Below are positions 2,062-63,036 of a stretch of 64,000 nucleotides of DNA, piece after piece. The notes below the pieces were generated by a model, which saw nothing but the letters and a program-made list of their open reading frames with translations, was not told the DNA's origin and made no database searches. A program made the position numbers and the translations under genes. This DNA is from Salipaludibacillus sp. LMS25 (lineage in GTDB: Bacteria > Bacillota > Bacilli > Bacillales > Salisediminibacteriaceae). How positions within the stretch are numbered: the stretch's first letter is position 1; each line of letters opens with the position of its first letter. Location of the stretch: contig NZ_CP093299.1 of assembly GCF_024362805.1 (NCBI RefSeq), positions 4,248,001-4,312,000 of the forward strand. Reading direction: 5' to 3'.

Positions 2062-2203
2062 ATAAAGCTAAGTTTCAATCAGTGGGCGTTTTCGTTTTTC
2101 TCCCACTGATTGATCATTGAGTGAATTAGAACATGAGCGCCCGTTACTTCCCGACTAAATTGATTTTGCTCTTCTCTCTTTTGCACCGGGAATATCTCTA
2201 TAA
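2062..2203 (+). repeat. Family B dispersed repeat, hybrid copy
   Basis: Starts ATAAAGCTAAG like family A and has the shared first hairpin (CAATCAGTGGG ... CCCACTGATTG, about 2077-2113), then switches to family B sequence (GAGTGAATTAGAACATGAGCG, GCGCCCGTTACTTCCCG). The 3' half is diverged or truncated and abuts the argH stop codon. It fills most of the 320-bp gap between argH and ilvE. Confidence 0.7.
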
Positions 2204-2208
2204 CCGAC

Positions 2209-3582
2209 TCACTGAAGAGCTTGACGGGCAAGATCTAATTGATTCCTTACTTCGTCTTGGGAGGTGCCACCGTAGCTTCGTCGACTTGCTACTACTTGTT
2301 CAGGGGCAAGTACCTCGTAAATATCTTTCTCGAACAATTCACTAAATTGATGGTATTCTTCGAGAGTCAAGTCAAGCAGGTATTTGTTATGATCAATACC
2401 ATATAACACTATTTTTCCGATCACTTCATGCGCTTGCCTAAATGGTAGGCCTTTTTTAACAAGGTAGTCAGCAATATCTGTTGCATTAGAATAATCTTCA
2501 GAGACTGCTTTTTTCATGTTACCTACTTTGACGACCATCGTATCAATCATTGGAGCAAGCATACCTAAGGACCCCTCTAATGTTTCAACAGTATCAAACA
2601 TACCTTCTTTATCTTCCTGCATGTCTTTGTTGTATGCGAGTGGAAGTCCTTTTAAAACAGTTAAAAGACCCATGAGATTTCCGTAAACTCGCCCTGTTTT
2701 AGCTCGTAGAAGTTCTGGCACATCCGGGTTTTTCTTTTGTGGCATAATGCTTGAACCTGTGCAAAACGAATCATCTAGTTCGATAAATTGGAACTCTTGG
2801 CTGCTCCAAATAACGAGCTCTTCTGATAAACGTGAAATATGCATCATTAAGATCGAGGCAGCAGACATAAATTCTAAAATAAAATCTCTATCACTGACTG
2901 CATCCATACTGTTTGGGTAAACATAATCAAACCCTAATTCATTAGCAACTTGCTGTCTGTCCAACGGAAACGTTGTCCCTGCAAGTGCCCCTGCTCCTAA
3001 CGGTGACCCGTTTACTCGTTTCAAGCTATCCATGAGACGTTCTTTATCGCGTTGCAGCATCCAAAAATAAGCGAGCAAATGATGGGCAAAAGAGACCGGT
3101 TGTGCCCGCTGTAAATGGGTATAACCTGGTAAAATCGTATCCACGTGGTCTGTAGCTTGATTAATGACTGCTTGTTGGACATCTTTTACAAGACTGATAA
3201 TAGTCTCTGTATGTTTTTTTAAATATAGATGCATATCAGTGGCCACTTGGTCATTCCGACTTCGTCCGGTATGCAGTTTTCCACCCAGTGGGCCGATTTC
3301 ATCAATGAGGAACTTTTCAATATTCATATGTATATCTTCGTTGGCCACTGAATACGTCAGTTCCCCATTTTTTATTTTTTCATGAACTGCTTTCAACCCA
3401 TTTTCAATTTTTTCCCCTTCATCTTCCGAAATAATCCCTGTTGATGCTAGCATATGAACATGGGCAATACTTCCTTCTATATCTTCATCTGCGAGTTTTT
3501 TATCAAAATGAATAGAAGCAGTTTGTTCTTCTACAAGTTTGTTCGTTTCTTTTGTAAATCTTCCGCCCCATAATTTGGACAT
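2209..3582 (-). CDS. argH: Argininosuccinate lyase
   Basis: Last enzyme of arginine synthesis: splits argininosuccinate into arginine and fumarate. Member of the fumarase/aspartase superfamily, shown by the signature loop [12 protein letters not shown] that carries the catalytic serine, and by [13 protein letters not shown] near residue 110. The start chosen is the ATG at 3582, with AAGGAGGCG 6 nt upstream; it gives 457 residues beginning [10 protein letters not shown], the usual family start. A longer in-frame reading to 3624 has no ribosome site. It follows argG after 111 bp that hold a hairpin. Confidence 0.95.
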
Positions 3583-14742: not shown

Positions 14743-14852
14743 ATAAAACGAACCTTCAATCAAAACATTAGCGTCCGTTATCTCTCGCCTAAATAGATTT
14801 ATTTCTGCTCTATTTTGAGGCGGGAAGTTTACGGACGTTTATCTGTAATAAA
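14743..14852 (+). repeat. Family B dispersed repeat lacking the first hairpin
   Basis: Begins ATAAAACGAACCTTCAATC and passes directly to ACATTAGCGTCCGTTATC, so the first hairpin is deleted. The second module is intact: CGCCTAAATAGA pairs with TCTATTTTGAGGCG, and CGTCCGT pairs with ACGGACG. The following 235 bp up to the cls terminator show no gene. Confidence 0.75.
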
Positions 14853-18428: not shown

Positions 18429-18587
18429 ATAAAGCTAAGCTTCAATCAGTGGGCGTTTTCCTTCATCCCCCACTGATTGTTCGTTTAACTTATGGGACCT
18501 TTAGGGGCAGTTTATCCCCCACCTAAACTTGTCGATCTTCTTAAGTTTTGAGGTGGGGGTTTTACTGCCCCTTAAGAGGGGGATAAA
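18429..18587 (+). repeat. Family A dispersed repeat, copy 1 (full length)
   Basis: A 159-bp element from ATAAAGCTAAGC to GGGATAAA. Module 1 is a hairpin, CAATCAGTGGG ... CCCACTGATTG. After TTATGGGACC, module 2 is a long imperfect palindrome built of GGGGCAG/CTGCCCC, CCCCCACCT/AGGTGGGGG and AAACTT/AAGTTT. It ends 3 bp from the ohr stop codon. No U-run follows, so a plain intrinsic terminator is unlikely. Confidence 0.9.
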
Positions 18588-19287: not shown

Positions 19288-19446
19288 ATAAAACGAACCT
19301 TCAACTCAGAGGGAGTTATTATTCTTCTCCCACTAAGTTGAAGGGGAGTGAATCTGGCTATTAGCGCCCGTTATTTCCCGCCTATATAGAGTTATCTCTT
19401 CTTCTATTTTGACGTCGGGGTTTTATGGACGGTTATCTGTGTTAAA
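19288..19446 (+). repeat. Family B dispersed repeat, full length
   Basis: Runs from ATAAAACGAACC to CTGTGTTAAA, with first hairpin (CTTCAACTCAG ... CTAAGTTGAAG) and second module (GCGCCCGTTATTTCCCGCC ... GACGGTTATCTG). It lies 88 bp beyond the yhgE stop codon. Confidence 0.8.
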
Positions 19447-22844: not shown

Positions 22845-23006
22845 ATAAAGCTAAGCTAAGCTTCAATCAGTGGGAGTTTTCCTTCATCACCACTGATTGT
22901 TCGTTTAACTTATGGGACCTTTAGGGGCAGTTTATCCCCCTCCTAAACTTTTCGACTTCTTAAGTTTTCAGGTAGGGGTTTTACTGCCCCTTAAGAGTGG
23001 AATAAA
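22845..23006 (+). repeat. Family A dispersed repeat, copy 2
   Basis: Full-length copy with a 5-bp duplication (CTAAG) at the 5' end and several point changes in the arms. It lies between the TetR gene and the plus-strand acidic protein gene. The remaining 240 bp up to that gene show no other structure I can name. Confidence 0.85.
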
Positions 23007-24732: not shown

Positions 24733-24817
24733 ATAAAACAAAGCTTCAATCAGTGGGCGTTTTCCTTCATCCCCCACTGATTGTTAGTTTAACTTATGGG
24801 ACCTTTAGGGGGATAAA
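24733..24817 (+). repeat. Family A dispersed repeat, copy 3 (internal deletion)
   Basis: Module 1 is intact, but the sequence jumps from CCTTTAGGGG straight to GGATAAA, so the whole second palindrome is missing. The end of the radical-SAM remnant reads into it. Confidence 0.8.
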
Positions 24818-31415: not shown

Positions 31416-31529
31416 TAAAACGGCAGATCTTGTCAGCTAAAAAAGCGACATTGTTCATCATAGTTAACAACGCGCTACTAGGATGCTTCTACCGTTTCAA
31501 ACACTCACCCCCCGAAGGTCAGAAACTTG

Positions 31530-31709
31530 AGAAAAGCAGGTAGGTCTCCTGACTTATGCCTCATCCTTTATGAGCCTTCCCATATACGACTATAAACAAT
31601 TAGTCTTCACAGTGGCATCTCATATCGTCAGCAAGTTACAGTTGCGGGGACAGTTCCGGACTTGCACCGGATTCCCTTTTAAGCTCGGTAAACGAGCACC
31701 TGTTTTTCT
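31530..31709 (-). promoter_or_regulatory. Cobalamin (B12) riboswitch
   Basis: Minus-strand aptamer. The B12 box reads AAGTCAGGAGACCTACCT (about 31539-31556), the GATGCCACTG core is at 31613-31622 or close by, and the upstream block GGTGCAAGTCCGGAACTGT is present. The closing stem pairs AGAAAAACAGG with CCTGCTTTTCT. By family knowledge, adenosylcobalamin binding lowers expression; here this would switch off the B12-independent reductases when B12 is available. Confidence 0.95.
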
Positions 31710-31894
31710 TAATTTAATGGCTTATATACCATATATAGATTTGTTTTCAAAAATATCATCTATATGATGATGTTACTAGCATAACGTTAATTGCTAAAAG
31801 ATGCAATCTTTTTTTCTTATTAAAACGTCTTGATTATTTAATCTAGTTCAAGTAGAATATCGAAATTGTGCGTGTTTTTATAGTTTTCGTGTCT

Positions 31895-32326: not shown

Positions 32327-32484
32327 ATAAAGCTAAGCTTCAATCAGTGGGCGTTTTCCTTCATCCCCCACTGATTGTTCGTTTAACTTATGGGACCTTT
32401 AGGGGCAGTTATCCCCCACCTAAACGTTTCGATCTTCTTAAGTTTTGAGGTGGGGGTTTTACTGCCCCTTAAGAGTGGGATAAA
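32327..32484 (+). repeat. Family A dispersed repeat, copy 4
   Basis: Near-consensus full-length copy from ATAAAGCTAAGC to GGGATAAA, 82 bp beyond the ykqA-like stop codon. One T is missing in the GGGGCAGTT spacer. Confidence 0.9.
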
Positions 32485-34536: not shown

Positions 34537-34695
34537 GTAAAGCTAAGCTTCAATCAGTGGGCGTTTTCCTTCTTCCCCCACTGATTGTTCGTTTAACTTA
34601 TGGGACCTTTAGGGGCAGTTTATCCCCCACCTAAACGTTTCGATCTTCTTAAGTTTTGAGGTGGGGGTTTTACCGCCCCTTAAGAGTGGGATAAA
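34537..34695 (+). repeat. Family A dispersed repeat, copy 5
   Basis: Full-length copy, 87 bp beyond the adhE stop codon and just upstream of the adhE terminator in map order. Arms of both modules are intact. Confidence 0.9.
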
Positions 34696-40347: not shown

Positions 40348-40623
40348 GATAACTTCCTTTCTATGTGGCATCTCGATGAGACCATTATGTTTAATAGCCT
40401 TTTTACATAAGATATAAACTCGTAACTTTTAAGTTAGTTGCGGTTGAAAATGACGTCGTTGTAGGAAATGCCTCTTCCTTTCCTTAGAAAGTATTTTCCA
40501 TAACTTTTTAACATTAAGTTTATTGGGTCATAACACGTTATAATTAGGCGATGATCCATCATACTTTCAGCTAACTTCCTTCCAAATATGAGCCGTCCAC
40601 GACATTCGGTCCGTCTTCTCTTT
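40348..40623. other. Intergenic stretch without a visible gene
   Basis: AT-rich spacer upstream of the hypothetical gene; nothing beyond its promoter region is apparent. Confidence 0.35.
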
Positions 40624-40760
40624 TATTACAGATAACCGTCCGTAAAACTTCAGCCTGAAAATAGAGAGGAGAGATAACGGATGCTCATGTCGTGATTCAC
40701 TCACCTTCCAATCAGGAGAAGAAGTTCGAAAACTCGCACTGATTGAGGGGGCGTTTTATA
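40624..40760 (-). repeat. Family B dispersed repeat, reverse orientation
   Basis: Read on the minus strand it starts TTATAAAACGCCCCC, has a degenerate first hairpin (CAATCAGTG ... GATTGG), then GTGAGTGAATCACGACATGAG and the second module ending ACGGACGGTTATCTGTAA. It lies upstream of the ABC-F gene. Confidence 0.7.
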
Positions 40761-43042: not shown

Positions 43043-43200
43043 TTTTATCACAGCTAACCGCCCGTAAAATTTCCGCCTCAAAATTGAACCAAATCTATTT
43101 AGGCTAGAGATAACCGAGGCTAATGTCCTGATTCACACTCACCGACCAATTAGTGGGCGAAGAACAAAACGTCCACTAATTGAAGCTTCGTTTTATAAAT
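43043..43200 (-). repeat. Family B dispersed repeat, reverse, full length
   Basis: On the minus strand it runs from TTATAAAACGAAGC through the hairpin CAATTAGTGG ... CCCACTAATTG and the second module to CTGTGATAAAACG. Its first bases contain the sbcC stop codon, so the repeat is fused to the end of that gene. Confidence 0.8.
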
Positions 43201-61334: not shown

Positions 61335-61369
61335 TGAGTCAAAGTTCATATTTACTTCAATTTTTTGAA

Positions 61370-61555
61370 GTGAGTTTAGAGGTGCAAGCGTTCATCAGTA
61401 GATGGCTGGAAGAGGATGAGCTCTTAAGAAAGTCGTGGAAAGGGAAGCTTGCCGAAGCAGCATTCGTCTCATACCGTATGTTGTTGGGTCTGCTATTGAA
61501 TAAATGCAGAACTGTCGTATAGTTTTACCACAAACTATATGGAGGGCTATCTCAC
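61370..61555 (+). promoter_or_regulatory. Lysine riboswitch (L box)
   Basis: Contains the L-box core: TTTAGAGGTGCAAGCG at the 5' side, AAAGGGAAGCTTGCCGAAGC in the middle, GTTGGGTCTGC, and GGAGGGCTATCTCAC at the 3' side. GTGAG (61370-61374) pairs with CTCAC (61551-61555) as the closing stem. The order and spacing match the B. subtilis lysC leader. Confidence 0.95.
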
Positions 61556-61581
61556 GCTGGATGACCGTTATCTATCCACGC

Positions 61582-62877: not shown

Positions 62878-63036
62878 ATAAAGCTAAGCTTCAATCAGTG
62901 GGGGCTTTCCTTCATCCCTCACTGATTGTTAGTTTAACTTATCGGACCTTTAGGTGCTGTTTATCCCCCAACTAAACGTTTCGATCTTCTTAAGTTTTCA
63001 GGCAGCGGTTTTACTGCCCCTTAAGGGTGGGATAAA
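62878..63036 (+). repeat. Family A dispersed repeat, copy 6
   Basis: Full-length but the most diverged copy (GGGGGCTTTCC in loop 1; AGGTGCTG and AGGCAGCGG in module 2, so the long stem is weakened). Its last 26 bp form the 3' end of the acetyltransferase gene on the other strand. Confidence 0.88.

Follow-up and report, generated by a model that had tools for sequence, protein, structure and literature searches.

The 2004 paper on bcr1, a repeat of the Bacillus cereus group, reportedly described an element of ~155 bp with a flanking TTTAT at each end. Published accounts give it lengths of 147 and 167 bp and a conserved fold (table in PMC2267715), and a TTTAT motif, 11 to 130 copies per strain and a range restricted to B. 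cereus sensu lato (passages of PMC6542083), while its way of moving is described as uncertain. Here we compare bcr1 and other described systems with family A, our name for the repeat whose reference copy spans 18429..18587 (+) of a 64-kb stretch of the Salipaludibacillus sp. LMS25 genome; this whole stretch, called the window, covers positions 4,248,001-4,312,000 of the host chromosome, which is one contig of 4,525,667 bases. We estimate at about 70% the probability that family A is a bcr1-family non-autonomous element of ~155 bp, found across the class Bacilli, that moves as single-stranded DNA. What is new in this analysis is that the copies face in a direction linked to replication.

Three other systems resemble family A in part. 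For the IS200/IS605 type of insertion sequence (IS), IS608 and ISDra2 are described as inserting into the lagging-strand template, as recognising subterminal hairpins and as choosing the cleavage position through a short guide that lies 5' of the foot of the hairpin (PMC6006769, PMC7290912). The palindrome-associated transposable elements (PATEs) of Haloquadratum have palindromes near their ends, no terminal inverted repeats and ~52-bp core-deleted forms that keep only the termini, and the relevant passages report strain-specific insertions despite broken IS200-type transposases in one strain (PMC3119063). Repetitive extragenic palindromes (REPs) are given as 20-40 bp long (PMC3733652, in part) and as associated with GTAG-type tetranucleotides (PMC6006769, in part); REP/BIME units, thought to be moved in trans by the Y1 enzyme TnpA_REP, are intergenic palindromes like family A, which differs from them in being ~155 bp long with TTTAT borders and in having neither the 20-40 bp palindrome nor the GTAG-type guide.

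Distribution of family A and its relation to bcr1

The initial annotation had reported six copies in 64 kb, and BLASTN recovered them at those places, in numbers far beyond chance: the first 23 bases of family A have 266 + 260 = 526 matches (≤ 3 mismatches) on the host chromosome, compared with 0 + 0 for the reversed 23-base control pattern. So many end matches in one genome represent a heavy load of an element without genes. The same 23-base end turns up in 45 of the 299 genomes sampled from the order, spread over 31 of 116 genera. In a separate count among relatives, one match, in G050, was rejected because it is not an element. A covariance model (R1), built from 60 rows from many genomes with only two rows from the host, places the family in at least 34 of the 299 genomes sampled from the class, which represent 18 of 119 genera; 27 of these genomes lie outside the order. 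This count is a lower bound, with nine candidates scored per genome. Among the matches listed, the named genomes belong to Niallia, Cytobacillus, Peribacillus, Oceanobacillus, Ornithinibacillus, Lysinibacillus, Sporosarcina, Natronobacillus, Evansella and other genera.

The link to the B. cereus group comes from IMG/VR, where 26 viral contigs match family A (L347-L372). Since 24 of the 26 have the repeat at one shared flank, mostly ~600 bases from the contig end, a common B. cereus-group prophage site appears to adjoin a bcr1-like copy. Two contigs with this flank, L352 and L363, carry the full-length form (130.5 bits, E 1.4e-25 over all 158 model positions). We searched one integrase, that beside the repeat in L371. 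It shows 92% identity to a cluster that carries the name Bacillus wiedmannii; its named matches, followed down to 58% identity, all come from Bacillus and almost all from species that we take to be members of the B. cereus group. As L371 has the same flank, we assign L352 and L363 to that host group as well.

Full-length copies in these prophage contigs make it very probable that family A and bcr1 are one family, the B. cereus-group copies being presumably the published bcr1. Family A is a ~155 bp repeat with TTTAT ends, and it resembles bcr1 (placed in group A with bcr2 and bcr3) in length class, TTTAT motif, conserved fold and homologous prophage copies. It departs from bcr1 in a claim about distribution, not in structure: accounts of bcr1 limit it to the B. 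cereus group, whereas family A extends through the genera of the order counted above and into other orders of the class. If the two are the same, the claim of specificity falls. The view of the initial annotation, which did not recognise the repeat as a named family and held that it differs from bcr, finds no support, in light of B. cereus-group copies with the same length and TTTAT borders. The Rfam search that it had proposed as a test gave no family above the gathering cut-off at the copies, the matches at E ≤ 10 being to microRNA, snoRNA and similar models. No family A match was found in the phage collection, and none to B. cereus plasmids in PLSDB even at E ≤ 10, a result that is uninformative because the presence of such plasmids there was not established. 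A Klebsiella grimontii plasmid record (L217, CP079755.1 218561-224631) has a core-deleted copy whose surrounding 6 kb show a GC content of 32%, suggesting that the record is misassigned and probably of Bacillales origin.

Insertion, fold and orientation relative to replication

The reference copy is 159 bp long with TTTAT at both ends (ATAAA on the + strand) and has the layout originally described: shared ATAAA...GGGATAAA borders, one hairpin, and then a second that is longer and holds nested stems. Its left border lies at 18429..18433 (+), where TTTAT on the lagging-strand template would form the 3' end of the mobile strand, and its right border at 18583..18587 (+), the putative TTTAT target on that template. 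Hairpin 1 (18443..18479, strand unassigned) has an 11-bp stem, CAATCAGTGGG/CCCACTGATTG, and hairpin 2 (18499..18576, strand unassigned) contains the nested stems.

A mobile nature had been proposed from the start, and the conclusion that family A is a non-autonomous mobile element is supported by empty sites, by its hundreds of copies and by its length. When the window was aligned with two genomes of the same genus, the copy at 62878..63036 (+) was absent from both G001 and G005, where ...CATTTTCATAAATAGG..., with one ATAAA, replaces ATAAA-element-ATAAA. The copy at 18429 is absent from G001, again with a single ATAAA; its site is also empty in G005, but reads CAAAC there, and divergence is too great at 22845, 34537 and 24733 for those sites to be read. 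We consider the element mobile because relatives without copies have a single ATAAA, against two in the filled site, and non-autonomous because it is too short for a transposase gene. Mostly one derived subtype is present in the host: 58 of 88 full copies have both derived bases, three show the other form at both bases, and the remaining 27 are either mixed or could not be read. The consensus of eight G001/G005 copies has the other form, from which we conclude that the host genome went through a burst of its own. That the G001/G005 copies are older is not claimed; the means differ (0.925 vs 0.958), but the medians (0.962 and 0.966) hardly do.

The target is nearly invariant. Among these 88 host copies, defined by both ends being aligned so that copies with damaged ends were filtered out, 83 carry ATAAA on the left side and 78 on the right, and no base outside is strongly fixed. 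A single ATAAA in the empty site and two in the filled one look alike whether the second arose by duplication or was carried by the element, and together with high copy number and no coding capacity this pattern would also fit a classical miniature inverted-repeat transposable element (MITE) whose DDE transposase duplicates a fixed 5-bp target, TTTAT, on insertion. We regard that explanation as quite unlikely: family A is without terminal inverted repeats (ATAAAG... and ...GGGATAAA stand in direct orientation), a single fixed pentamer serves as its target, no variant is repeated on the opposite side in the 15 copies where a border varies, and the replication-strand bias described below is unexpected for cut-and-paste movement.

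Adjacent tandem copies have a single ATAAA in common where they were read (L110, L149 and L155). This, and the fixed 5-bp core, could point to a recombinase for which TTTAT is the specific site, a suggestion already made for bcr1; it might work on single strands in folded form, as happens with integron cassettes. The dispersed sites of family A have little in common beyond 5 bp, a shorter match than the known tyrosine and serine recombinases require, and we consider such an enzyme unlikely here. Tandem arrays were also seen at L206, at G295:C1 3500113-3500546, G317:C9 2765-3026 and G005:C1 304610-304941.

The fold itself is conserved. Family A has z = -8.0 when folded as single-stranded DNA and z = -6.7 as RNA, with no shuffle (200 each) folding as well. 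We aligned 60 full copies out of 78 that passed filters for length (145-175), end motif and redundancy; these filters dropped other forms, the first right-end motif lying at 200-299 bases in 26 of 217 left ends and none lying within 330 bases in 92 of 217 (strict motif; one count). Over this alignment, 97.7% of 1139 cells are paired in the two-hairpin structure and 12 of 19 pairs have changes on both sides: 6 of 10 in hairpin 1 (98.0% of helix 1 cells paired) and 6 of 9 in hairpin 2 (98.6% and 95.0% for helices 2 and 3). The covariation score is 0.289, against a shuffled mean of 0.095, with 0 of 500 shuffles reaching the observed value and slid structures scoring 0.025-0.070. The expectation that paired arms are conserved over loops thus holds with real covariation, and two of the checks named beforehand, covariation and copies outside the strain, gave positive results.

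Covarying hairpins might instead belong to a structured RNA or a chromosomal signal (terminator, mRNA stabiliser or polarity signal), with orientation kept by selection and not by insertion. Using BLASTN in a host sample of 904 kb (41 stretches including the window), we found 137 copies or parts, of which 133 are intergenic compared with 27% intergenic sequence, and passages of PMC3446304 report about half of the bcr1-bcr18 copies transcribed in one strain and 40% in another. The same passages correlate only bcr3, not bcr1, with mRNA decay. The lineage-specific subtype burst and the empty sites also speak against a signal, as does orientation, which tracks replication and not local genes. Within the host genus, the 23-base end is matched 526 times in the host, 73 in G001 and 112 in G005, and 0 times in five other genomes, where divergent copies were not sought; such numbers argue against a conserved chromosomal role. 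We therefore think this alternative very unlikely. Of the structured RNA first proposed, the fold is real, but an RNA role is less well suited to the replication-linked orientation than selection on single-stranded DNA.

That orientation is measured against GC skew, whose sign switches in the host within the intervals 1.80-1.91 Mb and 4.11-4.23 Mb. In the 904-kb sample, 117 of the 137 copies run opposite to the G-rich strand (binomial p = 7e-18), whereas local gene strand matches fewer (87 of 137), and where skew and gene majority conflict (six stretches) 32 of 34 copies follow skew. Judged by the skew of the nearest sampled stretch, 24 of 25 copies in G001 (73 in all) and 34 of 40 in G026 (42 in all), each among the matches listed, oppose the G-rich strand. 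Splitting the chromosome into two arcs by position alone sorts 93 of 100 copies among the matches listed for G005 (112 in all) and 75 of 100 for G112 (117 in all), with 0 of 500 permutations reaching either value; the corresponding splits are 34 of 40 among the matches listed for G026 (1 of 2000 permutations) and 24 of 25 for G001 (2 of 2000). Copies sort by chromosome arm in five of the six genomes tested, G019 being the exception. In the three genomes with measured skew and a bias, the TTTATCCC...GCTTAGCTTTAT strand (TTTATCCC...CTTTAT) lies on the lagging-strand template, as it would for an IS200/IS605-type element. Our literature search found no report of a replication-strand bias for bcr1, the main bcr1 papers being outside its reach.

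A proposed route through single-stranded DNA

The orientation bias, the fixed TTTAT pentamer, the absence of inverted ends, the subterminal hairpins and the core-deleted forms together point to insertion of a single strand into the template of the lagging strand, in the manner of IS200/IS605 elements and PATEs. The transposase would act in trans and would most likely be an HUH enzyme; it would bind both hairpins on the single-stranded template and cut 3' to each TTTAT, and the excised strand would be rejoined 3' to another exposed TTTAT. In most rows of the alignment, the trinucleotide TAA stands directly 5' of both hairpins on the lagging-template strand and could pair with the TTA of TTTAT, at the position of the IS200/IS605 guide; on the complementary strand, TTAG follows hairpin 1 in 53 of 60 rows, and the columns after hairpin 2 read TT then A (52 rows), G (7) or T (1). 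Finding the same candidate guide and the same border at both ends is what a guide logic predicts. Family A is like IS200/IS605 in lagging-strand preference, subterminal hairpins, a fixed tetra- or pentanucleotide target and guide position, and unlike it in having no tnpA (for which 159 bp is too short), in its long second hairpin and in that both cleavage sites would be the same pentamer. If family A is bcr1, the replication-strand bias also supplies a mechanism that can be tested, in which single strands insert behind the fork; the hundreds of natural insertions provide material for the study of lagging-strand targeting in Gram-positive bacteria.

Several observations weigh against this route. 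The two pentamers could equally be a true 5-bp target duplication. In G019, of the same genus as G026, only 24 of 40 copies among the matches listed oppose the G-rich strand (p = 0.27), and no two-arc split is seen, 1647 of 2000 permutations doing as well. The bias was measured on standing copies and not on new insertions, so selection could in principle produce the pattern, and tandem copies mean that the orientation counts are not fully independent. Part of PMC7290912 describes IS605 elements without strand preference, 10 of 22 on the leading strand, which shows that a lagging-strand bias is not universal even for them. The enzyme is a further difficulty: G001, G005 and G077 carry copies but have no Y1_Tnp match at E ≤ 0.001, and Y1 occurs in 83 of 100 relatives, most of these without family A copies. 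Y1 presence therefore does not track the repeat among these 100 relatives, and we rejected it as a predictor. No element with family A ends plus an internal gene was recognised by eye, and the sole Y1 open reading frame (ORF) in the other loci belongs to the host's own IS, which was rejected as a direct parent because its ends are unrelated.

This IS200-like element is present in four near-identical, intact 745-bp copies (L031-L034, at G000:C1 1704857, 3161351, 3929232 and 3942745), each directly after a terminator-like hairpin and with a left flank of TTTAT in three and TTTTT in one. These flanks make the host TnpA a natural first candidate, yet the three genomes named above carry copies without a Y1_Tnp match; either the enzyme was lost after activity, as is also suggested for PATEs, or another protein is responsible. 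A family A copy lies within ~300 bp of an IS or remnant at four of six Y1 loci, which is suggestive, but the repeat is dense and intergenic; the two IS200-like remnants found beyond the four intact copies (L035 and L036) lie near family A copies. Among 350 left ends, a right end lies within 330 bases in 265, only further off in 45 and nowhere within 4.5 kb in 40. On inspection by eye, the distant cases seemed to be core deletions, ends that had mutated or matches by chance, with the intervening ORFs scanned for Y1 only. It is possible, and we raise it tentatively, that bcr1-like elements are class-wide single-strand transposons with a symmetric guide logic (the same TTTAT cut and the same TAA guide) whose enzyme is not a known Y1 transposase; the last part rests on genomes that carry copies but have no Y1_Tnp match, one of which, G005, has its copies sorted by arm.

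PATEs offer a parallel to family A, since they too combine palindromes near both ends with short core-deleted forms and have neither terminal inverted repeats nor a transposase gene. Family A differs in its target pentamer on both sides, its class-wide range and the lack of a parent IS605-type element with matching ends. As a limited search of the loci sampled found no IS605-type transposon with related ends, we do not file family A as a PATE but only as working like one.

Variant forms and other copies in the window

Core-deleted forms of 50-55 bp that keep both element ends occur in 22 distinct contexts in several genera among the loci sampled; a deletion running from the GTGGGGG stretch of one hairpin to that of the other is a plausible origin. 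Loci with such forms include L249, L274, L278, L280 and L293, and also L160, L166, L168 and L188. Longer forms with extra hairpins inside or just past hairpin 1 (e.g. around CACAGGACGTG) were seen at L126, L177, L193, L157, L211 and L112, and look as if the element gathers structured inserts. A second subfamily in the same genus has the left border AAAACGAACCTTC... and the right border ...TTATCTGTGATAAA (L227, L261, L264, L279, L280, L285 and many places in G005).

Besides the reference copy and 62878, both of them full-length and detected by BLASTN and the covariance model, the window contains three more full-length copies found by both methods: 22845..23006 (+), with a small duplication near its left border, 32327..32484 (+), and 34537..34695 (+), whose left border is GTAAA. 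A core-deleted short copy with both ends kept was found by BLASTN at 24733..24817 (+). BLASTN with 18429-18587 as the query placed these copies at 22853, 24733, 32327, 34538 and 62878, each on the + strand with an identity of 90-97%, and also returned fragments at 2062 (+) and 43143 (-). The covariance model added divergent copies, all at E ≤ 2e-8: 43044..43196 (-; E 8e-16), 19288..19446 (+; E 2e-14), a short copy at 14743..14852 (+; E 1e-8) and 40622..40759 (-; E 2e-8), and lengthened the divergent or partial copy seen by BLASTN to 2062..2233 (+; E 7e-11). Elsewhere in the window, Rfam cut-offs were passed by a cobalamin riboswitch at 31522-31718 (-) and a lysine riboswitch at 61369-61557 (+).
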